Of a stretch of 64,000 nucleotides of DNA, positions 1,806-13,459 are shown piece by piece. The notes under the pieces were generated by a model. That model saw only the letters and a list, made by a program, of their open reading frames with translations, did no database searches and was not told the origin of the DNA. A program made the translations under genes and the position numbers. Origin of the DNA: an uncultured SAR86 cluster bacterium (GTDB taxonomy: Bacteria; Pseudomonadota; Gammaproteobacteria; Magnimaribacterales; Magnimaribacteraceae); NCBI GenBank assembly GCA_902630715.1, contig CACOVO010000001.1, positions 1 through 64,000 on the forward strand, given 5' to 3'. The stretch's first letter is position 1. Each line of letters opens with the position of its first letter.

Positions 1806-3404
1806 TTATCTAGCTTGTGATTCTTCTATAAGCTTAACAAGGTTTTCGTGAATTATAGGCGCGGTATCTGGACCCAAAGATACTATCTCGCCATAAGTTT
1901 CTTCGTCCTCTCCATAGATCCAAGGGGCATCTTCATCCCATTCACTTTTTGGGATGATGTAACCAATAGAATCATTTGCCAAATTCACCATCAAATTTAG
2001 TTTGTCTGGAAATTGACTGCGCAAATGTGGAACTTCTTGCGGGGCTATCGTGTAATCGGCACCTAAAGGATTTTCTATGCCTCCAACAGCAATTTCTGGA
2101 TAAAGTTCTCCTGGAACACCTGTAATAGTCGCTTCTCCTAATTGTATGTATGCTACTTCACTTAAATAGCGAATAAATGGTGGCATCAGACTGAATTTAG
2201 TATCGGTATCAATCACGCCAAGTAAAGTGCCCAATGAGAGCATGAAATTTTCTATGCCTAATTCTATTTCTGCCGAGTGGACAGTTATGGATGGATTTGG
2301 TGACTGCTTAAAATCACCTATATTAAAAGCATCTATTACACTGTTCGCTAGACTATAGCCATATGCACGTGCTTTAGCATGACTTGGTTTAGTAAGCATT
2401 TTTTTCAAAACAGGATCATAAATTGGATCGGTCGGTCCTGATGTCATCAAACCTCCAATGTTTCCTGTAAGCCATAACGTGGTTCCACCAAGCCCAGCTC
2501 TTATGAGCTGATCATCATAATAAATGCCGTCACTGATGCCACTTCTTAAGTAGCCTGCAACATCAGAAGTTAATTCTAGATTTTTATCCCATGTAAGCTC
2601 GACATGAATTCCAAAGTTAATTAACGAGCCTATTATTGACCCATCGGGGCGATTAAACAAAATTACTCTTATGTCGTCATCTATAACGATGGGTTTTCGT
2701 TTATCTTTGATAGGCGTACGAGGATTGGTTGGAATTAAAGCTTGACTCATTTCTGCGGGCTCCAAATTATCTATAGCCATTTTTAATGTGCTTATGAAAT
2801 CTTTTTTAAGCTGCTCCATGTATGCATCATCAACACCGCTCTTTAAAAAACTTGGACCCCAAAGGCCTTGAGTATCTGGGCCCTCATGATTATGTGTTGC
2901 ATGCACCATGATGTAATCTAAACCCCACTCTGCAGGAACATCTTCGCGGACACTAAGTACAAATTTTCTCATCAAGCCAATAGTGTCAGCACTAATAATT
3001 GCTATCCGAGTCTGGCCGTCATCAATCACCGCAGTTACGGCCATGAGGTCATCTTTAACTCCTTGAGCAGCCCGTTTATTTTGAAAACCTGCCATCCAAA
3101 CAGCATCGAACTGGTTATTGCCGTTTAAATCAGTCCATTTATCGATATCTGGATCAAATTGAGCATCGTTATTTATATCCTCCCATTCATCAATAAGATC
3201 AGGGGTAATGGGAAGCTCAGCAAATCCAACTTTAAGTTCGTTTGCATAGATTTGAGAAGTCAAAAAAAGGGAAAACATCATGAGAATGTAAAGTCTGTTT
3301 TTTGTAAAACTAATTAGATTTAAACAGTATTTTAATTTCATTCTTTGTTTTGTATGTGTAGTGTGCCTGGCAGAATTGCTATAAGCATTATTAATGTAGC
3401 CCAA
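1806..3404 (-). CDS. neutral/alkaline non-lysosomal ceramidase-like secreted protein
   Basis: ELKVGFAELPITPDL...DLNGNNQFDAVWMAGFQNKRAAQGVKDDLMAVTAVIDDG...VHATHNHEGPDTQGLWG is typical of ceramidase-like N-terminal domains. The true start is probably the internal MKLKYCLNL, giving a signal peptide. Confidence 0.65.
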   Translation of the reverse strand: MGYINNAYSNSARHTTHTKQRMKLKYCLNLISFTKNRLYILMMFSLFLTSQIYANELKVGFAELPITPDLIDEWEDINNDAQFDPDIDKWTDLNGNNQFDAVWMAGFQNKRAAQGVKDDLMAVTAVIDDGQTRIAIISADTIGLMRKFVLSVREDVPAEWGLDYIMVHATHNHEGPDTQGLWGPSFLKSGVDDAYMEQLKKDFISTLKMAIDNLEPAEMSQALIPTNPRTPIKDKRKPIVIDDDIRVILFNRPDGSIIGSLINFGIHVELTWDKNLELTSDVAGYLRSGISDGIYYDDQLIRAGLGGTTLWLTGNIGGLMTSGPTDPIYDPVLKKMLTKPSHAKARAYGYSLANSVIDAFNIGDFKQSPNPSITVHSAEIELGIENFMLSLGTLLGVIDTDTKFSLMPPFIRYLSEVAYIQLGEATITGVPGELYPEIAVGGIENPLGADYTIAPQEVPHLRSQFPDKLNLMVNLANDSIGYIIPKSEWDEDAPWIYGEDEETYGEIVSLGPDTAPIIHENLVKLIEESQAR

Positions 3405-3523
3405 TAATCACCTCCTAACAATTTACCTGAAACGTAATCATTAATTCCATATCCAATTAATATAATCAAACAACCTAAATGAAGGTATAGAAAAAGCTTC
3501 TTAAGAGTTAACTTTTTAATCAC
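3338..3523 (-). CDS. small membrane protein (61 aa, GTG start)
   Basis: ORF starts 9 nt after the rep1 glmS-tail stop; hydrophobic central segment. Confidence 0.4.
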   Translation of the reverse strand: MIKKLTLKKLFLYLHLGCLIILIGYGINDYVSGKLLGGDYWATLIMLIAILPGTLHIQNKE

Positions 3524-3532
3524 TGTTCTGAA

Positions 3533-3554
3533 TTACTCCACGGTAACTGATTAG
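3533..3554 (-). repeat. glmS-tail core repeat 1: ttactccacggtaactgattag
   Basis: Minus strand TCA GTT ACC GTG GAG TAA = S V T V E stop, identical peptide to the GlmS C-terminus. Confidence 0.85.
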
Positions 3555-3574
3555 TTTTTTGTGTTACCCTTTTT
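3555..3574 (+). repeat. left terminal inverted repeat of module 1 (degenerate)
   Basis: ttttttgtgttacccttttt vs minus-strand TTTTGGGTGTAACTGTTATG (3718 down to 3699); 10 of the first 13 positions match. Confidence 0.5.
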
Positions 3575-3701
3575 TTACTTTTATTCCCTGTTTTTTGAAC
3601 ATTTCCATTAGATTTTTCTTGATTAAATCTCTGGAGTCTTCGGGTTTTACGACTACACCCTCTAATTTCTCTTCTTTTGTTTTTTCTTTTTTCTTTTTCA
3701 T
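3564..3701 (-). CDS. hypothetical lysine-rich 45-aa protein
   Basis: Manual translation MKKKKEKTKEEKLEGVVVKPEDSRDLIKKNLMEMFKKQGIKVKKG; fills the interval between core repeats 1 and 2. Confidence 0.45.
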   Translation of the reverse strand: MKKKKEKTKEEKLEGVVVKPEDSRDLIKKNLMEMFKKQGIKVKKG

Positions 3702-3718
3702 AACAGTTACACCCAAAA
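3699..3718 (-). repeat. right terminal inverted repeat of module 1 (degenerate)
   Basis: Abuts core repeat 2; pairs with 3555-3574. Confidence 0.5.
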
Positions 3719-3740
3719 TTATTCCACAGTAACGGAGCAA
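3719..3740 (-). repeat. glmS-tail core repeat 2: ttattccacagtaacggagcaa
   Basis: Minus strand TCC GTT ACT GTG GAA TAA = S V T V E stop. Confidence 0.85.
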
Positions 3741-3760
3741 GGTGAACGGGTCTTACATTC

Positions 3761-3934
3761 TCAACTATTTTTGTTCATAAATTTTTTCATTGAAAGAGAA
3801 ATTATTGCTATTAAAAAAAATACCGTGGCAACATCATGGAGACCGTTGATGCCAAATAAACTTTCAGATAAATACATCGCTATTGCAAGAATTATTAAAA
3901 CCCAGAATTCATATTTTTTTAAAAACTTAATCAT
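3761..3934 (-). CDS. small membrane protein (57 aa)
   Basis: Manual translation MIKFLKKYEFWVLIILAIAMYLSESLFGINGLHDVATVFFLIAIISLSMKKFMNKNS; fills the interval between core repeats 2 and 3; start 9 nt after the repeat-3 stop. Confidence 0.5.
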   Translation of the reverse strand: MIKFLKKYEFWVLIILAIAMYLSESLFGINGLHDVATVFFLIAIISLSMKKFMNKNS

Positions 3935-3943
3935 TTTTTGAAA

Positions 3944-3965
3944 CTACTCCACCGTAACGGTATTG
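3944..3965 (-). repeat. glmS-tail core repeat 3: ctactccaccgtaacggtattg
   Basis: Minus strand ACC GTT ACG GTG GAG TAG = T V T V E stop. Confidence 0.85.
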
Positions 3966-3985
3966 AATTGGAGTATGATTTGATT
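3966..3985 (+). repeat. left terminal inverted repeat of module 3
   Basis: aattggagtatgatttgatt vs minus-strand ATTTGAAGTGTGATTTAAAA (4439 down to 4420); 14 of 20 match. Confidence 0.6.
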
Positions 3986-3993
3986 CATGACGA

Positions 3994-4179
3994 TTAACTG
4001 TAAGAATTCCAATATATCTTAATCATTCTTTTTACTCCTGGTGTTTTAATTTCTTCAATATCCTTTAGGTTTTTGTAAATCAACGAGTATGTGTCTGGTG
4101 TGAGGTCATCAGGTCTGGTTCCCCCTTTCGTCTCTCTAAAAAACTGGGTTGTAAGTGACATTATTTCTTCTTTATCCAT
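3994..4179 (-). CDS. hypothetical protein (61 aa)
   Basis: Short ORF overlapping the end of the 81-aa ORF by 19 nt; same strand and module. Confidence 0.35.
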   Translation of the reverse strand: MDKEEIMSLTTQFFRETKGGTRPDDLTPDTYSLIYKNLKDIEEIKTPGVKRMIKIYWNSYS

Positions 4180-4406
4180 CCTTCTCTTTCATCGTGATTT
4201 AAATGTTGGTCAACTGATGAACCATTTCCAGTATATATATCTTCTAAAGAGGTATCCTTTTGTAAACATTTTCTATATCCAGAGTTTGGAGAATTTATCT
4301 CATTATAAGTTCTACCCCTTCCATCGTTATCAATCCAATTCCACCTATCAATGTGTAGTTTCTTCCTAACTCTTTCGGTGGTTTTATTTGTTCTAAAATA
4401 TTTCAT
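4161..4406 (-). CDS. hypothetical protein (81 aa)
   Basis: ATG start 33 nt after the repeat-4 stop; first ORF of module 3. Confidence 0.4.
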   Translation of the reverse strand: MKYFRTNKTTERVRKKLHIDRWNWIDNDGRGRTYNEINSPNSGYRKCLQKDTSLEDIYTGNGSSVDQHLNHDEREGWIKKK

Positions 4407-4419
4407 TACTTAAATTAAT

Positions 4420-4439
4420 TTTTAAATCACACTTCAAAT
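4420..4439 (-). repeat. right terminal inverted repeat of module 3
   Basis: Abuts core repeat 4; pairs with 3966-3985. Confidence 0.6.
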
Positions 4440-4461
4440 CTATTCAACGGTGACTGATTGG
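4440..4461 (-). repeat. glmS-tail core repeat 4: ctattcaacggtgactgattgg
   Basis: Minus strand TCA GTC ACC GTT GAA TAG = S V T V E stop; the 18 nt are identical to the present glmS 3' end. Confidence 0.9.
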
Positions 4462-4479
4462 ATTTGTGTGTTCCTATTT
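4462..4479 (+). repeat. left terminal inverted repeat of module 4
   Basis: atttgtgtgttcctattt, perfect 18-bp inverted match to 5868-5885 (aaataggaacacacaaat). Confidence 0.9.
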
Positions 4480-4490
4480 CTTTTTTTCAT

Positions 4491-5516
4491 TTACTTTTTT
4501 AAAGGTGTCATTACCCAATTTCCTTTAATGTCATAGAAATCAAATACACCTTCATATTTATCGTCTCCTAACCAAATACCGGTCCAGGTTCTATAACCGT
4601 CTCCAAAAATAATATTATTTCCTTCAAAAGACCAAGAATAATTCTTCAAATTTTTTCCTGAGGAATAAATTAAACCATTTCCTCTAAATTCAAATATGTC
4701 TGTTTTTCGTTCGGGGAGATTTTTATACCGTATTTCCCATGTTTTATTTGTGTTAATTCGGATGGTGTCCTGAAAATTAGTTCCAGTTCCAAATATCTCC
4801 CCTGTACTTCCTCCGTTCAATATACGTACTCTATAGAGAAGTTTTCCCTCATTATCTCTTACGTTCTCAAGATAATCCCCGAGACCACCTGTTCTCAGAT
4901 AAAAATATTCAAATTGTGGTTTCCCATTAATAATTCTTTTGTAACTGATCATGGTACCGTCTTTATATTCAGTTAAATCATAACTATTCTCAGTTATATT
5001 AGATCTAAGTGTTCCGTGTCTTTTTCCGTTTTTCCAATTTATTACCTTGTCCAATCTTCCATCTTCAGAATAAAAATTTTCCACACCTTCTTTCTTCCCA
5101 TTCTTAAAATAAACTTCAATAGATAATCTCCCATTAGGATTAAAAATTTTTTCATGAACACGTTCTCCTTTGTAATAGTCAGTAAAAGTAAATAGTTCTC
5201 CACTTGAATAATAATATCTAACAGGTCCGTGAATTACACCACCAACATACTCATAATGTGATTCCAAAGTTCCATCATATCTAAATTGTTTTGAGGGACC
5301 ATCTAATAGACCTCTGTAATAACTTTTCGAAAACTTTATATCTCGATTCGGTTCTTTTAGATAATAACCTATTACAACTCCTGTAATAGGTCTTCTGGTG
5401 TTTTGATCAAGTGTTATCCCTTCTTCAATCAATACGGGACCGGTTATAATTTTTCCCCTATCTTCACCACAGGAAAACAAAAATAAACAACAAAGAATTA
5501 AAAACAACTTATTCAT
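4491..5516 (-). CDS. MORN-repeat / YwqK-like lipoprotein
   Basis: MNKLFLILCCLFLFSCGED lipobox; repeats such as YYKGERVHEKIFNPNGRLSIEVYFKNGKKEGVENFYSEDGRLDKVINWKNGKRHG. Confidence 0.7.
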   Translation of the reverse strand: MNKLFLILCCLFLFSCGEDRGKIITGPVLIEEGITLDQNTRRPITGVVIGYYLKEPNRDIKFSKSYYRGLLDGPSKQFRYDGTLESHYEYVGGVIHGPVRYYYSSGELFTFTDYYKGERVHEKIFNPNGRLSIEVYFKNGKKEGVENFYSEDGRLDKVINWKNGKRHGTLRSNITENSYDLTEYKDGTMISYKRIINGKPQFEYFYLRTGGLGDYLENVRDNEGKLLYRVRILNGGSTGEIFGTGTNFQDTIRINTNKTWEIRYKNLPERKTDIFEFRGNGLIYSSGKNLKNYSWSFEGNNIIFGDGYRTWTGIWLGDDKYEGVFDFYDIKGNWVMTPLKK

Positions 5517-5554
5517 TAACGTTAAGTAAAATTTATATTTTTTTGAATAAAGTT

Positions 5555-5881
5555 CTAGTTTAATGAAAATTTAGATATCTGGGGTATGATTTTCTTCTTC
5601 CTCAATAAATTTATTCTTTCTTCTCGTTGTCTATGTCTCTTTAAGACTGAATAAACTGATGTGTTGAACCAAGTATTACCTCTTTCAGTTTTAATACCCC
5701 AAGAATTCAATTTATCCCTTATCTTTCTATATCCTAGACCCTTTTCCTCATGTAGATATTTGATTAAGTTGAGTACTACTTGTTGTCTTTTTGAATATAC
5801 AGACCTAAAAGTTAGGTCATTTGACTCTATCTCTATTTCGAATTCTAAATATGGGATTGTGTTCTCAAAATAGGAACACAC
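5555..5881 (-). CDS. small HTH protein resembling the serine-recombinase 'Recombinase' DNA-binding domain
   Basis: EKGLGYRKIRDKLNSWGIKTERGNTWFNTSVYSVLKRHRQREERIN; no catalytic resolvase domain; paralogous to ORF 6397-6666. GTG start 4 nt after the repeat-5 stop. Confidence 0.55.
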   Translation of the reverse strand: MCSYFENTIPYLEFEIEIESNDLTFRSVYSKRQQVVLNLIKYLHEEKGLGYRKIRDKLNSWGIKTERGNTWFNTSVYSVLKRHRQREERINLLRKKKIIPQISKFSLN

Positions 5882-5885
5882 AAAT
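5868..5885 (-). repeat. right terminal inverted repeat of module 4
   Basis: aaataggaacacacaaat; reverse complement ATTTGTGTGTTCCTATTT is identical to 4462-4479. Confidence 0.9.
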
Positions 5886-5907
5886 TTATTCCACCGTCAC
5901 TGTTTAA
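5886..5907 (-). repeat. glmS-tail core repeat 5: ttattccaccgtcactgtttaa
   Basis: Minus strand ACA GTG ACG GTG GAA TAA = T V T V E stop. Confidence 0.85.
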
Positions 5908-5922
5908 GTTTGAACAGAGAAT
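5908..5922 (+). repeat. left terminal inverted repeat of module 5
   Basis: gtttgaacagagaat, perfect inverted match to 6323-6337; with the adjoining taa the match is 18 bp. Confidence 0.9.
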
Positions 5923-5975
5923 AAGATTTTTAAACCTCTTATCAAACATTATATAAAATCTTCTATACTTTTCTT

Positions 5976-6335
5976 TCATGTTCTTTTTAGAAACTCTGAC
6001 ATAAAGTCTTCACAGATTTTCTTGACTGCTTTTGCGTCTTCGTCACCAAAAGTTTTGTTTGGTCTATTTTCATAATCATTACAGAACTTTTCACATGCAT
6101 TGCTGGAATAAAATGCAGTAACGCCAAGATGAAGCATGTGTATAATCTCGTTTGTAGGTTTAATATTTTGCTTGGACAAGACAGTGCTGCAAACAGTTTT
6201 TATTTCCTCTTCAGTTGCAACTCTATTATTTGTTGACTCCCACTTTCTCAGATGATTGCCTGCCTGGAAAACGAGAGCATACTGAAGAATATTATATGCT
6301 CCGAATAATTCCTGAATACTTAATTCTCTGTTCAA
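5976..6335 (-). CDS. hypothetical protein (119 aa, TTG start)
   Basis: Only ORF between core repeats 5 and 6; start 2 nt after the repeat-6 stop. Confidence 0.5.
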   Translation of the reverse strand: MNRELSIQELFGAYNILQYALVFQAGNHLRKWESTNNRVATEEEIKTVCSTVLSKQNIKPTNEIIHMLHLGVTAFYSSNACEKFCNDYENRPNKTFGDEDAKAVKKICEDFMSEFLKRT

Positions 6336-6337
6336 AC
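6323..6337 (-). repeat. right terminal inverted repeat of module 5
   Basis: attctctgttcaaac; reverse complement GTTTGAACAGAGAAT is identical to 5908-5922. Confidence 0.9.
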
Positions 6338-6359
6338 TTACTCCACCGTTACAGACTTT
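6338..6359 (-). repeat. glmS-tail core repeat 6: ttactccaccgttacagacttt
   Basis: Minus strand AAG TCT GTA ACG GTG GAG TAA = K S V T V E stop. Confidence 0.9.
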
Positions 6360-6362
6360 ATC

Positions 6363-6373
6363 CTACAGAGGGG
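6363..6373 (+). repeat. left terminal inverted repeat of module 6 (RM module)
   Basis: ctacagagggg; inverted match to cccctctgtag at 11610-11620. Both lie 3 nt from the core/stop codon. Confidence 0.8.
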
Positions 6374-6396
6374 ATTATCTGTGTTTTGATGTTGAG

Positions 6397-6666
6397 GTGA
6401 CTTCCAATCAACTTTGGCACACCCATTATTCTCCCTACCAATCATTTCTCCATAATAAGATAAAGCAACTCAAAGCAGAAGGTTTGGGTTATAGAAAAAT
6501 TGCCAAAAGACTTAACGAAGAAAATATAAAAACCTCTAGGGGCAATATCTTTTTCCCTTCTAGTGTCTATTCCATTTTAAAAAAGAAGAAAATTAGAGAT
6601 GAAAGATTGAATCAAGAATTTGAAAAAAAGATATCTGAGTTTTTGTTTGAGTATGTGATTGATTAG
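6397..6666 (+). CDS. small HTH protein resembling the serine-recombinase 'Recombinase' DNA-binding domain (89 aa, GTG start)
   Basis: AEGLGYRKIAKRLNEENIKTSRGNIFFPSSVYSILKKKKIRDERLN, similar to ORF 5555-5881; only plus-strand gene in the modular region. Confidence 0.55.
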   Translation: MTSNQLWHTHYSPYQSFLHNKIKQLKAEGLGYRKIAKRLNEENIKTSRGNIFFPSSVYSILKKKKIRDERLNQEFEKKISEFLFEYVID

Positions 6667-6669
6667 AAC

Positions 6670-9141
6670 CTAGTCCTCACCCCAAACTTTATTGATTCTG
6701 TCTTGAATTTTCTGAGAATAGATTTCGATGAGTTTTTTATTCCCTTCTATAACTTTTCTTTCTTCTTCTATTCTTGAAAGAACATCAACTAAATCATTTT
6801 TTGAAGGAAGTGGAATTTTGTATCTCTTAAGGTCATTGATTGATAAATTTGGTTGATTTAGTGCGGTAGCATTGGATTCAACATATGAATGAAAGTTATT
6901 TGATTGTAGAAGAACAAAAATATAATCTTTAATTGTCTGTGTATCACAACTTATTGATGCGACCCTTTGATTTAAAAGTGAATCATTAAATGACTTAGGA
7001 ACTAGTGCCACTTTTACTCCATCTGCAATAATTGTTCTTGTAAGTGCAACCACAATATCATTTTCTTTAACTAAAAATTTTGAATGCTTTTCTTTGAATT
7101 CACTTGGAAGGAAGTCTATCTCATTAACAAAATCTCCTAACCCGACATTAGTGATTTTTATAGATTTTATTCCCTGCTCTTGTTTAAAGTCTTTACTGCT
7201 AAATGAGTACCCACTTAGTATTGAAGAAACCTTTTCCAACTCAACCATCTCCCAACTTGGATCAATATCAATAGTTGGTTTGTAGTTCTCAACAACTTGT
7301 TTACACCCATCAATAATTTTTTGATACCCCTCTAACTCATCAACTATTTCTTGTTGAACTTCGAGAGGTGGGAGGGGGATTTCTAAGGATTTGATATTTT
7401 TAGTGTTAATGCTTGCTTGATTGACTGCTTTTTGAGCATATCTTTTTGCATCATTTATGAAATTATTTGATTTAAATATAAACAATGCATAAAGAGGTAA
7501 TATTTGATTTTGAATTGGTTTTAATTTAATTAAATTTGAACCATGAACAATTTTTTTATTTAAGTTGAAGATTGCTGTTTTTGCCAAGTGATCCATGCTA
7601 TTTATGTGACTAAATAAAATATCTCCTTTTTGTAAAAAATTTGATTCATCTACAGAATCATCTGTCCATTTTGTTGCTGAAGGGTTAAATGTCCCATCTG
7701 CTATTGAGGCAATTCGTGAAACTCTATACCTTCCCCCTTCATCTTGTTGTTTGACATTTTTTCCGTTTTTAATTTCACTAAATACTGATTCCAAACTCAC
7801 TAGGTCAAAGTTTGATTGACGGTCTATTTGTGTCTTATATCTTTCTAAAGAAAGAATGTAATCATTCTGAATAATATCTTCTTTATCTACATACATTAAA
7901 AGATCTGAGTCTTCATTATCTGACATTTTTATTTGATCAATTACTTGAGGAATATCATTTTCTTTAATTTGATTTCTTTGTGCACCCAAATCAAATCCAT
8001 CATTTTTAACCTCTGCAAAGAAAACTGAATCTCTTTCTTTGTTTAATTTCTTATCAAGAATAAGAATAGATGTCTTAACACCTGCATAAGGATTAAAAAC
8101 CCCGGCAGGTAAAGAAATCACTCCTATCAGTGCATTTTCAATAAGTTGTTTTCTTAACTCTTTATATGCTTTACCAGTTTGAAAAATAATTCCCTCAGGA
8201 ACAATAATTCCTGCACGACCATTGGGTTTGAGGTGTTCTAAGATATAACTGGTAAATAAAACTTCTGCTTTCTTTGATTCAACTCCAAATCTCTTATGAG
8301 GTTGAATTCCACCTTTAGGAGAGAAGAATGGTGGATTTGCAAGAATCACATCAAAGTATTCATTCCATTTATCCTCAGATGAAAGAGTATCGTATTCATC
8401 GATCTTTGGAGTGCTGAAACCATGCAAATACATATTTACTAATGAGAGTCGAATCATTTCGGGAGATATATCGTATCCGGTCACATTCTCACCTACTTTC
8501 TTTTTATCTTCTGCAGAAAGTTGGTCACCTAATTTTTTATCTGTGTTGGTCTTTAAAATATGTTTATAAGATGAAATTAAGAAACCTGCTGTGCCACACG
8601 CAGGATCAAGAATTGTTTCATTCTTTTGTGGGTCAATAATCTCAACAATAAAATCAATAATATGTCTTGGTGTTCTAAATTGCCCTGCATCACCTTGTGA
8701 ACCCATGATAGAAATTAGATATTCAAATGCATCCCCTAGTTTTTCTGAGTGCGAATAATTAAATTCATTTATCTCTTTTAAAAACATGTTCAGTGTTGAG
8801 GGATCCTTAAAAGGAAGAAACGCATTTTTAAAAATATCTCTAAATAAATGAGGTGCAGATGGGTTTAGATACATACTTTCTATTGCTTGACTGTATAGGT
8901 TTACCTTATCGACACCACTGAGTTTTGTATCTAATAGATTCTTCCATGCATACTTTTCATAATCTCCTACGAAGAAAGAACCCTTACCCCCCATTTCAAT
9001 AGATTCCTGATCCATGTCATCCATGAACTTATAAATTAGTCCTGTTGTGATTTGTTCTACTTGAGTTTGAGGGTTTGGAATCTTTCCAACAAGAATATCT
9101 CTCAAAGTATCTATTTTGCGTCTAGTATCAGAATCAAGCAC
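6670..9141 (-). CDS. type I restriction-modification HsdM-HsdS fusion (N6-adenine methylase + specificity domains)
   Basis: N6_Mtase motifs DPACGTAGFL and DVILANPPF, followed by two S-type target-recognition regions (FDLVSLESVFSEIKNGKN..., WEMVELEKVSSILSGYSF...) in one 823-aa ORF. Confidence 0.85.
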   Translation of the reverse strand: MLDSDTRRKIDTLRDILVGKIPNPQTQVEQITTGLIYKFMDDMDQESIEMGGKGSFFVGDYEKYAWKNLLDTKLSGVDKVNLYSQAIESMYLNPSAPHLFRDIFKNAFLPFKDPSTLNMFLKEINEFNYSHSEKLGDAFEYLISIMGSQGDAGQFRTPRHIIDFIVEIIDPQKNETILDPACGTAGFLISSYKHILKTNTDKKLGDQLSAEDKKKVGENVTGYDISPEMIRLSLVNMYLHGFSTPKIDEYDTLSSEDKWNEYFDVILANPPFFSPKGGIQPHKRFGVESKKAEVLFTSYILEHLKPNGRAGIIVPEGIIFQTGKAYKELRKQLIENALIGVISLPAGVFNPYAGVKTSILILDKKLNKERDSVFFAEVKNDGFDLGAQRNQIKENDIPQVIDQIKMSDNEDSDLLMYVDKEDIIQNDYILSLERYKTQIDRQSNFDLVSLESVFSEIKNGKNVKQQDEGGRYRVSRIASIADGTFNPSATKWTDDSVDESNFLQKGDILFSHINSMDHLAKTAIFNLNKKIVHGSNLIKLKPIQNQILPLYALFIFKSNNFINDAKRYAQKAVNQASINTKNIKSLEIPLPPLEVQQEIVDELEGYQKIIDGCKQVVENYKPTIDIDPSWEMVELEKVSSILSGYSFSSKDFKQEQGIKSIKITNVGLGDFVNEIDFLPSEFKEKHSKFLVKENDIVVALTRTIIADGVKVALVPKSFNDSLLNQRVASISCDTQTIKDYIFVLLQSNNFHSYVESNATALNQPNLSINDLKRYKIPLPSKNDLVDVLSRIEEERKVIEGNKKLIEIYSQKIQDRINKVWGED

Positions 9142-11593
9142 TAGATAACCTCTCTAAATCAACCTTTCCTTTAATAAACTGTGGGATCATTTCTTGTAAC
9201 TCTTCTGGTAAATTCTTAAATGCCTGTCCTGAGGGATGAACATTTAGTTCAACAAATCTCCCTTCATCAACTATTTCTCTATATTCAGGATCAGTTACAT
9301 AAGATTCAAAAACCTCTTTTGCATCTTGGAAATGATCATCAGATGGATTTAATTCCTCATCTAATTTTTCAAAATCTTCCTCTAAACATTCATTTTTAGA
9401 TTTAATTCGATCTATATGACCAAATGCATGCAATAACAATTCTGAGACACTGAGTTTTCTATCGAGTTCGAGAGATTTCCCTAGTTTCTGAAGAGTGAAA
9501 TATTCCTCAGGTTTGTCCAAGATATTTTCCTCTAAATAATTTTCCGCACTCTCAAATTCCATGTTTTCAACAAAATTACGAATAGTAGAGTTGTCTGTCA
9601 CCACTGATTGAAAAGATCGGTATAAATCACGATCTATTTTCATTCCTTCATCACTAACAGTTATTTCTTCTAAAAACTTTAAAGGATCTTCGTTGTAATT
9701 AGTTACTTCACCGACTGGATCAATATCAATAGGGTCGTCGATAGGGACGGAAGGTTTTTGAGGGAGTTTTAATATTTCATCGTAATCAAACTCCTTCTCA
9801 AAATATTCATAGTTTCCAAAGAAGTCGAAGAGATTGAATTTATCCTTAATTGAATCAACATGATAAGGTATTTCATTTTGTGAAATCCAATGGAACTTAA
9901 AATCATTCTTTCTAGTACCACGACCTTTCATCTGAATAAATTCACTGGGTGAATACACTGGTCGCATCAAACATAAATTTAATATGTCGGTGCAGTCATA
10001 CCCTGTGGTCATCATTCCTACAGTGACACACACTCTGGTTTTAGAAGTTCGATAATGTTCATTAACTTGAGACTGTCCATTCAAACCATTGTTTCTAAAA
10101 TCTATAGTCATCCTTTGGGATTCATCAATACTTGAGGTTACTTGAACGGCAAAGTCTGAACGATACTGATTAGGAAAAAGTTTATCTGCAAGGATATTTA
10201 ATATCTGAGTTACTTTTGAGGCATGATTTTGAGACACACAAAAAATTAGAGTTTTCCCAATTTCACCAGTGTAGGGGTCTCTTTTTGCTTCTTTGAGAAA
10301 GGTTTCACAAAAAATAGTGTTGGTAGTATCAGAGAAAAACCTCTTTTCGAAATCCTTCTTCAAAAAGGTTTCTTCAACATCATTACCCTCATCATCAACA
10401 CCTTCAAAAATATACCCCTCATCCGACAATAACTCGGTGGTGATTTCAGTCCTAGCATCAAAAACTTTTGGATTAACCAGGTATCCGTCTTTTACACCAT
10501 CTTCTAGTGAATACCTGAATGTGGGTTCTCCACTTTCACAACCAAAGGTGGTGTAAGTGTCCAGCAAAAATCTTTTTTCTAATCCCCTTGGATCTTTCTC
10601 ACCAAGTTTATCGACATCAACTGACCTCAAGAAATTTCTTGGTGTTGCGGTTAGTCCAAGTTTAAATCCATTAAAGTATTCAAAAACCCTTCTGCTTCTT
10701 GCACCTAGAGAACGATGTGCCTCGTCTGAGATCACTAAATCAAAATCATCATGATTAAAGATTTTCTTGTATTTGTTTTTACTTACAAACGATTGCACTG
10801 TGGAGACCACAATCTCTGCTTTTCTCCAATCACCCTGATTTTCTTTCCAAATTACAGTTCTAAAATCATTTTTTAATACTTCATCAAATTCCTTTTGTGC
10901 CTGAGTCTCAAGTTCAAGTCTGTCCACAAGAAACAAGACTCTATTAACTTTATAAAGTCTCAAGAACATTTTGATAATTGCACAAGAAACTAAAGTCTTG
11001 CCTGTGCCTGTTGCCATTTCTAGAAGAAATCTGTCTTTTCCATCTTGTACACTCTTCTGCACAGAATGAACTGCCCCCAACTGGTAATCTCTTAATACCC
11101 TTATTTTATTTCTTGTTAAAAAGTCACTCCTTTTTGATTCATCAAGGTAATTGGGGTCTTTTTCAAAATTTGGGTGCTGAGTTACCCCAATGTAGTTATT
11201 AGAAATTTTCTCATCTTCTTTAACAGGTGGATTAAATTTCTCTCTTCTTAGTTCAATTTGCTCTTGAGTGGGAAATTGGTCTATAACGAATGGACTGCCT
11301 TGCTCTAAATCCCATTGATAGTGCTGAATTCCATTAGAGAGAATCACAAATCTGCAACCTAGTGAGTCTGCGTAACTCCGTGCCTGTTCTTTACCATCTA
11401 GGGGGGACTTCAGTTCTCTTTTTGCTTCAATTATGCACAGGTATGATCCTTTAGAATCAAGCAAGGTGTAATCAGCAAACCCTGAATCATTTCGGGTTTC
11501 CGTTTCGACATTTACTTTTCCATCATCACCTGGCAAAACCCATCCGGATTCTCTTAAGAGTTTGTCGATTATGATTCTTGCACTTGCCTCCAT
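9134..11593 (-). CDS. hsdR: type I restriction enzyme R subunit
   Basis: LLEMATGTGKTLVSCAII Walker A, VISDEAHRS DEAD-like box, GLTATPRNF, IQMKGRGTRKN motif; overlaps the hsdMS start by 8 nt. Confidence 0.9.
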   Translation of the reverse strand: MEASARIIIDKLLRESGWVLPGDDGKVNVETETRNDSGFADYTLLDSKGSYLCIIEAKRELKSPLDGKEQARSYADSLGCRFVILSNGIQHYQWDLEQGSPFVIDQFPTQEQIELRREKFNPPVKEDEKISNNYIGVTQHPNFEKDPNYLDESKRSDFLTRNKIRVLRDYQLGAVHSVQKSVQDGKDRFLLEMATGTGKTLVSCAIIKMFLRLYKVNRVLFLVDRLELETQAQKEFDEVLKNDFRTVIWKENQGDWRKAEIVVSTVQSFVSKNKYKKIFNHDDFDLVISDEAHRSLGARSRRVFEYFNGFKLGLTATPRNFLRSVDVDKLGEKDPRGLEKRFLLDTYTTFGCESGEPTFRYSLEDGVKDGYLVNPKVFDARTEITTELLSDEGYIFEGVDDEGNDVEETFLKKDFEKRFFSDTTNTIFCETFLKEAKRDPYTGEIGKTLIFCVSQNHASKVTQILNILADKLFPNQYRSDFAVQVTSSIDESQRMTIDFRNNGLNGQSQVNEHYRTSKTRVCVTVGMMTTGYDCTDILNLCLMRPVYSPSEFIQMKGRGTRKNDFKFHWISQNEIPYHVDSIKDKFNLFDFFGNYEYFEKEFDYDEILKLPQKPSVPIDDPIDIDPVGEVTNYNEDPLKFLEEITVSDEGMKIDRDLYRSFQSVVTDNSTIRNFVENMEFESAENYLEENILDKPEEYFTLQKLGKSLELDRKLSVSELLLHAFGHIDRIKSKNECLEEDFEKLDEELNPSDDHFQDAKEVFESYVTDPEYREIVDEGRFVELNVHPSGQAFKNLPEELQEMIPQFIKGKVDLERLSSA

Positions 11594-11609
11594 GTTTACA
11601 AGTATAAAC

Positions 11610-11620
11610 CCCCTCTGTAG
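11610..11620 (-). repeat. right terminal inverted repeat of module 6
   Basis: cccctctgtag; pairs with 6363-6373. Confidence 0.8.
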
Positions 11621-11623
11621 AAC

Positions 11624-11645
11624 CTATTCAACGGTGACTGACTTG
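11624..11645 (-). other. extant glmS 3' end / putative attachment core: ctattcaacggtgactgacttg
   Basis: Encodes A K S V T V E stop of GlmS; parent copy of the six displaced repeats. Confidence 0.85.
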
Positions 11646-13459
11646 GCCAAGTTTCTTGGCTGATCAATATCTGTGCCTTTCAGAATAGCAACATGATAAG
11701 CGAGGAGCTGAAGAGGTATAGAATAAATAAGAGGTGCAATGAGTTCTGGTATTTCAGGAAGCTCAATAAATCTTGTAATAGATTCATCATCGTGATGAGC
11801 GTCAGAATGCCCAAAAACATAAAGTTTACCGCCTCTTGCTCTTACCTCTTCTAAGTTTGATTGTAGTTTCTCTAGAAGATCATCATTTGGAGCGACTGCA
11901 ACTACTGGCATTTCTGAATCAACCAGGGCTAAAGGTCCGTGTTTTAATTCGCCTGCAGGATAAGCTTCAGCATGTATGTAGGAGATCTCCTTTAGCTTCA
12001 AGGCACCTTCCATAGCGACAGGATAATGAATACCACGTCCTAAGAATAAAGCATGTTCTTTCTGATCAAAATCTTCAGCCATTTCTATTATTTGATCTTC
12101 TAAAGCCATGACGGAATCTAAAGAATCTGGAAGCGCTCTCAAAGAGTTGTTGATAGCATTTTCTGCAACAGACGAGAGGCCGTGATGTCTGCCGAGAATA
12201 AGAGTCAACATCAATAAACCTACAAGTTGTGTTGTGAAAGCTTTCGTTGAGGCAACGCCTATCTCAGGTCCTGCCTTGGTCAGAAAAACAAGATCAGATT
12301 CGCGCGCCAGAGAGCTTGAAGGAACATTACAGATTCCTAGACAAGCTAAATAATCTGAGTCCTTAGCCGAGCTAAGACAAGCTAAGGTATCAGCAGTTTC
12401 GCCAGACTGAGATATAGTAATAAAAAGCGTATTGGGGGCAACTACCTTGTTCCGGTAACGGAACTCACTTGCAACTTCTACACTGCATGGCAATCCGGCG
12501 AGTCCCTCTAACCAATATTTGGCTACCGTGCCAGCATGAAAACTTGTGCCACAGGCTACTATTTGAACTGATTCTACTTGCTTAAAGACCTCGGGGGCAC
12601 TCGGGCCAAAAATTTCTTCTTGAACTCCAGAATCAGTTAATTGGCCTTCTAAAAGTCCTTTAATTTTAGCGGGTTGCTCATTGATCTCTTTAAGCATGAA
12701 ATGTCTATAATCTCCCTTATCTACAGTTTCTCCTAAAGACTTCGCAACCACTACAGGCCTTTCAACTTCTTTATCCTCAAGGTTCCAATACTTTGTTTCA
12801 GTTGAGGTAATTTCTGCAAGATCTCCTTCTTCAAGAAATACAAAGTTTTCAGCAAAATCTGCAAGCGCTAGTTGATCCGAAGCGATGAAGTTCTCTCCAT
12901 GGCCCATGCCAATAACTAACGGGCTTCCTTTTCTTGCAGCTGATAAAATTCCTGGCTCACTCTCACAAACAGCGCCAATCGCATAGGCGCCCCTTAAGTC
13001 TTTTACGGCCAACTTTAGAGCATCTGTAAGAGACAGATTTTTCTCTGTCATTTTTGCATGAATTAAATGCGCAATGACTTCTGTATCGGTTTCTGATTCG
13101 AATTTATAACCCAGGGCCTTAAGTGTTGTTCTAATTTCTTGATGATTCTCAATTATGCCATTGTGGATTACATATACTTGGTTGTTTGAGTGATGAGGAT
13201 GTGCATTTGCCTCTGTTGGTAGGCCATGAGTTGCCCATCTGGTATGGGCAATTCCCGTATTTCCATTGACGGGATTTTTATCAATTGAATTTTGTAGCTC
13301 TGCTACCTTGCCCGTACTCTTGAATACTTGAACTTTTTCTGTTTCATCAAAAATAGCAAGTCCTGCTGAATCATAGCCTCTATACTCTTGGCGCAAGAGA
13401 CCTATCAGCAATTTATCTACTGAAGGCTTACTGGAAGCAACCCCGATAATTCCACACAT
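11624..13459 (-). CDS. glmS: glutamine-fructose-6-phosphate aminotransferase (isomerizing)
   Basis: MCGIIGVASSKPSVDKLLIGLLRQEYRGYDSAG ... DQPRNLAKSVTVE. Confidence 0.98.
   Translation of the reverse strand: MCGIIGVASSKPSVDKLLIGLLRQEYRGYDSAGLAIFDETEKVQVFKSTGKVAELQNSIDKNPVNGNTGIAHTRWATHGLPTEANAHPHHSNNQVYVIHNGIIENHQEIRTTLKALGYKFESETDTEVIAHLIHAKMTEKNLSLTDALKLAVKDLRGAYAIGAVCESEPGILSAARKGSPLVIGMGHGENFIASDQLALADFAENFVFLEEGDLAEITSTETKYWNLEDKEVERPVVVAKSLGETVDKGDYRHFMLKEINEQPAKIKGLLEGQLTDSGVQEEIFGPSAPEVFKQVESVQIVACGTSFHAGTVAKYWLEGLAGLPCSVEVASEFRYRNKVVAPNTLFITISQSGETADTLACLSSAKDSDYLACLGICNVPSSSLARESDLVFLTKAGPEIGVASTKAFTTQLVGLLMLTLILGRHHGLSSVAENAINNSLRALPDSLDSVMALEDQIIEMAEDFDQKEHALFLGRGIHYPVAMEGALKLKEISYIHAEAYPAGELKHGPLALVDSEMPVVAVAPNDDLLEKLQSNLEEVRARGGKLYVFGHSDAHHDDESITRFIELPEIPELIAPLIYSIPLQLLAYHVAILKGTDIDQPRNLAKSVTVE

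Follow-up and report, generated by a model that had tools for sequence, protein, structure and literature searches.

The window analyzed here, a 64,000-nucleotide stretch of DNA from an uncultured SAR86 cluster bacterium (contig CACOVO010000001.1, positions 1 to 64,000 of the forward strand), carries on its minus strand the glmS gene and, past the glmS stop codon, a series of modules separated by displaced copies of the last glmS codons. These copies, called tails below, were located with the pattern YTAYTCNACNGTNACNG, which matches exactly at 3533, 3719, 3944, 4440, 5886, 6338 and 11624 (the last being glmS itself), on a single strand. Shuffling the sequence 100 times gave an expectation of 0 matches versus the 7 seen, and the source assembly (1.26 Mb, ~64% complete) holds no match to YTAYTCNACNGTNACNG beyond these seven. 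Relatives of this glmS that bear names are from SAR86 cluster genomes. Read in the glmS direction, all the tails in the window encode V-T-V-E-stop, and they vary only in wobble bases or between TAA and TAG. Modules are measured from the AC of one tail's Thr codon to that of the next and carry module-specific inverted repeats, or arms, at their ends; arm matches were counted over 23 positions and are given as x/23. From glmS outward, the features are as follows.

11624..13459 (minus): glmS, 611 aa; last codons TCA GTC ACC GTT GAA TAG, the putative attachment site, with the AC crossover at 11635/11634
6349..11634 (minus): module 1, 5,286 bp AC to AC, type I restriction-modification (R-M) cassette; arms 11607-11629 and 6354-6376, 17/23
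9134..11593 (minus): HsdR-like restriction subunit of module 1, 819 aa (ResIII, HSDR_N_2)
6670..9141 (minus): fused HsdM-HsdS of module 1, 823 aa (N6_Mtase and two Methylase_S stretches)
6397..6666 (plus): helix-turn-helix (HTH) protein at the distal end of module 1, 89 aa; PF07508 at E=8e-7, ~10 relatives in other modules (phmmer)
6338..6352 (minus): displaced tail 1, GTAACGGTGGAGTAA
5897..6348 (minus): module 2, 452 bp, with a 119-aa open reading frame (ORF) at 5976-6335; arms 6321-6343 and 5902-5924, 20/23
5886..5900 (minus): displaced tail 2, GTGACGGTGGAATAA
4451..5896 (minus): module 3, 1,446 bp, with a 108-aa HTH protein (5555-5881) and a 341-aa MORN-repeat protein (4491-5516); arms 5869-5891 and 4456-4478, 20/23
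4440..4454 (minus): displaced tail 3, GTCACCGTTGAATAG, same as the present glmS tail
3955..4450 (minus): module 4, 496 bp, ORFs of 81 and 61 aa; arms 17/23
3944..3958 (minus): displaced tail 4, GTTACGGTGGAGTAG
3730..3954 (minus): module 5, 225 bp, 57-aa ORF; arms 10/23, symmetry not clear
3719..3733 (minus): displaced tail 5, GTTACTGTGGAATAA
3544..3729 (minus): module 6, 186 bp, 58-aa ORF; arms 16/23
3533..3547 (minus): displaced tail 6, GTTACCGTGGAGTAA
~3318..3543 (minus): module 7, probable remnant, 61-aa ORF; end approximate, distal tail decayed

A sequence-only reading of this DNA had reported the seven cores, and exact pattern matching returned the same coordinates and the same codons. 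Where that reading took (S/T)VTVE as the common motif, V-T-V-E-stop is indeed shared, but the Ser or Thr codon belongs to the other, less constrained half of the site, and at other sites TTT, TTC or CCT stands in its place. Its statement that all differences are synonymous holds in the window but not throughout the relatives, where 15 of 114 arm-supported tails deviate once from the V-T-V-E-TAR pattern, as expected from decay after displacement. The six displaced copies it counted are all present, and we add module 7 as a probable seventh module past the last core; the left part of this module begins at AC and has 78% nucleotide identity to L063:4906-5125 (L-numbers label the SAR86 loci and genomes compared). 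The description of the cassettes as sub-kilobase has to be amended for the glmS-proximal module of 5.3 kb. The median module length is ~540 bp, 90% of modules are shorter than ~2 kb, and the longest has 6 kb.

In the glmS direction a module begins with the C-N-GTN-GAR-TAR of a tail and then the left arm; at its other end the same arm recurs in inverted orientation, followed by NNTCNGTNA, beyond which lies the next tail. The inverted repeats mirror each other around the A|C bond in the Thr codon, giving a dyad site of ~55 bp: in 40 of 57 intervals between consecutive tails the best arm match lies at offset 0 about A|C, with matching from ±5 to ~±27. A scan blind to the tails, in which arms palindromic about any AC were sought (ten million tested), returned 72 pairs, 66 of them joining two glmS tails; its GT-centred hits are mostly the same palindromes with the register shifted by three bases. 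Arms matching at 12 or more of 19 positions, the threshold of this comparison, were found for 150 of 260 adjacent tail pairs versus 8% of random pairs. The consensus of the arms across modules is loose (NTTYRAACAGTGATTTA), and the match within a module is far better.

The position of the exchange can be read from module ends that occur in several contexts. For right ends (20 groups) the identity of the wobble bases is 0.91 before AC and 0.26, the chance level, after it, while for left ends (26 groups) the value before AC is 0.39, with higher values after it. Because the identity of module ends breaks across AC, we place the exchange there. Serine recombinases use a two-base overlap; the overlap of tyrosine recombinases is 6-8 bp, and the integron cut is G^TT. 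The attP of serine integrases is described as a pseudo-palindrome of ~50 bp, built of 25-bp half-sites around a central dinucleotide (PMC3783163).

The two halves of the site are constrained differently. In the left half the third position of the Glu codon is a purine, the stop codon contains TA and the last base is a purine, almost without exceptions, whereas the symmetric positions of the right half are much freer. Left halves encode T-V-E-stop, and would have to do so because the left half becomes the glmS end at insertion. Since the left half is kept and the right half, which never serves as the glmS end, is freer, with the same protein bound to both in the site proposed below, the constraint is mainly coding and not binding. 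The restriction to synonymous variation would be explained by each incoming cassette supplying a new glmS 3' end.

Comparison of relatives, a check proposed by the sequence-only reading, revealed gain and loss of modules with breakpoints at the cores, with 24 pairs of occupied and empty sites. In the cleanest pair, a 186-bp module at glmS is present in L039 and absent from L041; glmS retains the base that precedes AC, and the one that used to follow AC returns at the far side of the module. Internal occupied/empty pairs (L153/L157 and L111/L126) show that displaced tails are also used as sites, or else that modules are lost from these positions. Whole modules were moreover found at different loci in 52 pairs, of which 31 are between SAR86 families. 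Modules shared between families are 90-100% identical versus ~65% for the adjacent glmS genes; one 249-bp module is 100% identical between families with glmS ~65% identical. Module 1 of the window has a counterpart in another SAR86 family, L150:9653-14883, which has 90.6% nucleotide identity and the same AC ends and is the seventh module from glmS. L097:3745-9082 agrees with module 1 in its right end and in carrying the gene for the 89-aa HTH protein, but has other large ORFs (749 and 882 aa); by eye, these resemble another R-M type, and the L150 module is a type I R-M cassette by its DNA match to the window.

The distribution of the arrays was surveyed in 204 SAR86 genomes and in 271 other Gammaproteobacteria. 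Arrays are present in all four SAR86 families. In the window's family, where all 20 genomes with full glmS assembled were examined, 18 have a displaced tail (at most one mismatch) downstream of glmS; in one of the other two the region is cut by a contig end, and the family genomes giving no tail match are those without full-length glmS assembled. Across the order 163 of the 204 genomes match, with at least two exact copies in 114 genomes, at least three in 61 and a maximum of ten, and within any locus the tail copies share one orientation. Among the matches listed for the 271 other Gammaproteobacteria there are no tail clusters; these are essentially single copies, as expected for glmS itself. 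Thus the motif search suggested by the sequence-only reading yields arrays downstream of glmS in SAR86 and essentially single copies elsewhere in the Gammaproteobacteria.

One element at the site encodes a candidate enzyme. In L144 a 6,047-bp module with arms matching at 20/23 sits directly on the glmS stop codon; it encodes a replication protein (Rep, PF23343) and a protein of 551 aa that combines Resolvase, Recombinase and Zn-ribbon domains (PF00239, PF07508 and PF13408, the last just below the curated cut-off) and ends ~30 bases before the next tail. This integrase keeps the catalytic Y-x-R-V-S motif and the invariant residues Y11, R13, V14, S15, R87 and R90, and is related to the SPbeta YokA, TP901-1 and PhiC31 integrases, its closest solved relatives being phage-type. 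The L144 arms recur on integrase-free modules in L146 (22/23 within itself), L150 (21) and L153 (18), and one end was found in L043. These modules share their arms with the L144 element, and one arm type is therefore tied to one integrase; the modules of this type that lack an integrase suggest mobilisation in trans. Two other large serine recombinases, of 525 aa in L140 (G155) and 519 aa in L141 (G164), lie outside the glmS arrays of those genomes.

A viral origin was considered and rejected: seven hits on viral contigs are chance matches inside phage genes, the viral relatives of the integrase are distant, and no similar phage DNA was found. The PF07508 hits in the window were likewise rejected as serine recombinases, being small HTH ORFs (89 and 108 aa) and not integrases. 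About ten such small HTH proteins, which look like a part of the serine recombinase domain, lie in several modules, in the window (6397-6666, plus, and 5555-5881, minus) and in L063, L097, L102, L115, L118, L120, L044 and L150, some of them right at an arm. It is possible that this family comprises excision factors or regulators.

We consider it highly probable that the SAR86 glmS 3' end is the attB for a family of integrative cassettes, and that large serine integrases move these, usually in trans. The circular form of a cassette would have a site of ~55 bp, composed of right arm - NNTCNGTNA|CNGTNGARTAR - left arm with the arms mutually inverted, and the integrase would cut the strands and rejoin them at AC, in the middle of the site and within the Thr codon. 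Joined to glmS, the half of the cassette made up of C-N-GTN-GAR-TAR and the left arm would provide a new Thr(part)-Val-Glu-stop end, while the old glmS end, now beyond the cassette, would become a further target; repeated insertion would produce an array in one orientation. Most cassettes, having no integrase, would be moved in trans by the integrases of relatives sharing their arms. Wobble positions would be free because only two base pairs have to match, and the remaining left-half positions would be held by coding selection because T-V-E-stop is needed while the tail serves as the glmS end. The comparisons support three claims of the sequence-only reading: a serial cassette array on glmS, an attachment site within the glmS coding end, and displaced copies that were once working glmS 3' ends. 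That reading had also called the architecture integron-like, which fits the one-orientation cassette array; as to mechanism, the symmetric ~55-bp site, the AC crossover and the resident large serine integrase argue for a serine-integrase system resembling the staphylococcal cassette chromosome (SCC) rather than for an integron.

Several observations weigh against this proposal. In 17 of the 57 intervals between consecutive tails, module 5 of the window included, the best arm match is off-centre, which may result from decay or composite modules. At left ends the wobble bases at +2 and +5 after AC have identities of 0.60 and 0.77 versus ~0.9 in the adjacent arm; a strict AC crossover leaves this variation unexplained, and these bases are not linked to the right end. 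Serine recombinases are few across the order, and of the large integrases the 204 SAR86 genomes have one at glmS and one truncated relative, the latter being 33% identical to the L144 integrase and located on a 2-kb contig of another genome; because of this rarity in the sampled genomes we can only infer the assignment to an integrase. For the other arm types, the likeliest source of an integrase is elements that the sampled cells did not contain. Finally, a search with the tail-plus-arm pattern found no phage or viral contig with the attachment site.

Among the alternatives, the one that survives best, although we regard it as unlikely, is that the cassettes are moved by a tyrosine recombinase that takes the glmS tail for its core site, be it the XerC/XerD of the host or an IntI of the integron type. 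XerC/XerD-like enzymes of ~300 aa are near universal in these genomes, sporadic integrases of ~460 aa occur, and integrons likewise build one-orientation cassette arrays. However, a 6-8 bp overlap would span differing wobble bases and blur their linkage, which instead drops from 0.91 to 0.26 across AC; a G^TT cut would put the next wobble base with the downstream part, the opposite of what is observed; and the ORF clusters of the arrays include no IntI-type integrase. Homologous recombination between tails with no dedicated enzyme is still less plausible: the tails are similar, and some of the wobble variation after AC resembles local conversion, but the shared stretch is only ~15 bp and is interrupted by wobble differences, modules cross between families despite a glmS nucleotide identity of only ~65%, and neither the module-specific symmetric arms nor the single crossover position would be explained.

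Tn7-like or other DDE transposons that target the glmS end, with the tails as target-site duplications, are very improbable. The recognition of the conserved glmS end by Tn7 is established and the modules do have terminal inverted repeats, but the arms are centred on the tail and not outside it, and no TniQ match was found in the 204 SAR86 genomes (the control set gave none either). Target-site duplication was rejected since the nearest displaced tail is usually unlike the present glmS tail, in most genomes read and in the window. The two-base core and the wobble tolerance would also suit an RNA-guided IS110-type recombinase inserting circles, for which we see next to no chance, as the IS110 domain is absent from the 204 SAR86 genomes while positive in four control-set genomes, and no Rfam family was found in the region.

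The cargo of the modules is variable. Among 85 module proteins scanned, R-M systems (types I, II, III and IV) are found repeatedly, as are HNH nucleases, along with enzymes, lipoprotein-like proteins and small membrane proteins. Most module ORFs of at least 90 aa (154 of 176) are in the glmS direction. Directly 3' of the new stop codon, 13 of 156 modules have a terminator-like motif, and such modules may bring a new transcription end when at glmS. A terminator-like GC-rich repeat with a T run was noted within the first 110 nt past the tail in L038, L055, L118, L131, L146, L150, L153 and L156. Just past the array, the window encodes a ceramidase-like protein (1806-3404, minus; weak Pfam match), and a similar gene lies past the array in L061. 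At the window's start there is a 171-bp direct repeat with 75% identity (1-171 and 340-510), in what appears to be a gene of a repeat-domain surface protein crossing the window edge.

SAR86 bacteria are among the most abundant uncultured ocean bacteria and have streamlined genomes. We think it rather probable that the arrays form an order-wide cassette exchange platform, a serine-integrase counterpart of the integron, in which short integrase-free cassettes form a common pool, sit in the coding end of an essential gene and rewrite that end at every insertion, circulate between families and are mobilised in trans by rare integrase-bearing elements. With restriction systems of types I-IV among the cassettes traded between families, and identities reaching 100%, a single fixed locus of this kind provides a concrete route of lateral gene transfer. 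Because insertions leave a boundary and swap synonymous glmS codons, insertion history, donors and turnover are readable in the single-cell genomes and metagenomes already available. The site illustrates how a protein-coding attachment site may stay functional for both host and element, and the integrase with its two-base-overlap site may find application in genome engineering. Searches of the open-access literature on SAR86, with subscription journals and preprints mostly outside the coverage, found no account of such glmS arrays.

Compared with known systems, the SAR86 arrays share with Tn7 and attTn7 the use of the conserved V-T-V-E end of glmS. Tn7 inserts downstream of glmS and leaves the codons untouched, whereas in SAR86 the last glmS codons are exchanged, and no Tn7-type gene was found, the TniQ search returning nothing in the 204 SAR86 genomes or in the control set. 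Phage large serine integrases (A118/LI, SPbeta YokA, TP901-1, PhiC31) have the same domain set and a pseudo-palindromic attP of ~50 bp, but serve single prophages and not many short integrase-free cassettes at one site. Tycheposons and phage satellites are also marine elements at conserved gene ends, some mobilised in trans; those described are larger, use tyrosine recombinases and occupy tRNA genes, unlike the SAR86 cassettes.

Integrons are the nearest functional analogue, having one-orientation arrays of small cassettes at a fixed site, R-M systems among the cargo and exact breakpoints. The tested defining features of integrons nevertheless fail for the SAR86 arrays. The crossover is at AC and not at G^TT, with the GTN wobble base staying upstream (0.91); symmetric arms around a gene tail take the place of the attC hairpin; and insertion takes place in an essential gene and replaces its end. 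No IntI-type integrase was seen beside the array among its ORF clusters, and PF00589 in the family genomes corresponds to two near-universal enzymes of ~300 aa and sporadic integrases.

Of the known kinds of element, SCC and the Enterococcus cassette chromosome (ECC) at rlmH, with CcrAB or CcrC, come nearest. Stacked elements, members lacking a recombinase and R-M cargo are known for SCC. In SCC/ECC a large serine recombinase acts at att sites in the 3' region of a conserved gene, these sites being dyad-symmetric and ~50 bp long, and the cargo is variable (PMC6222049). The SAR86 cassettes are alike in integrating at a 3' coding end and restoring the gene, and in a dyad att site of ~50 bp with crossover at a central dinucleotide. 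One element on glmS encodes a large serine recombinase and a truncated relative occurs elsewhere, but nearly all modules have none. The SAR86 cassettes differ in their target, glmS and not rlmH, in an integrase whose closest solved relatives are of the phage type and not Ccr, in mostly being 0.2-2 kb long (the median is 540 bp), in reaching as many as ten exact cores in one genome, and in having cassette-specific arms and being spread over a whole order.

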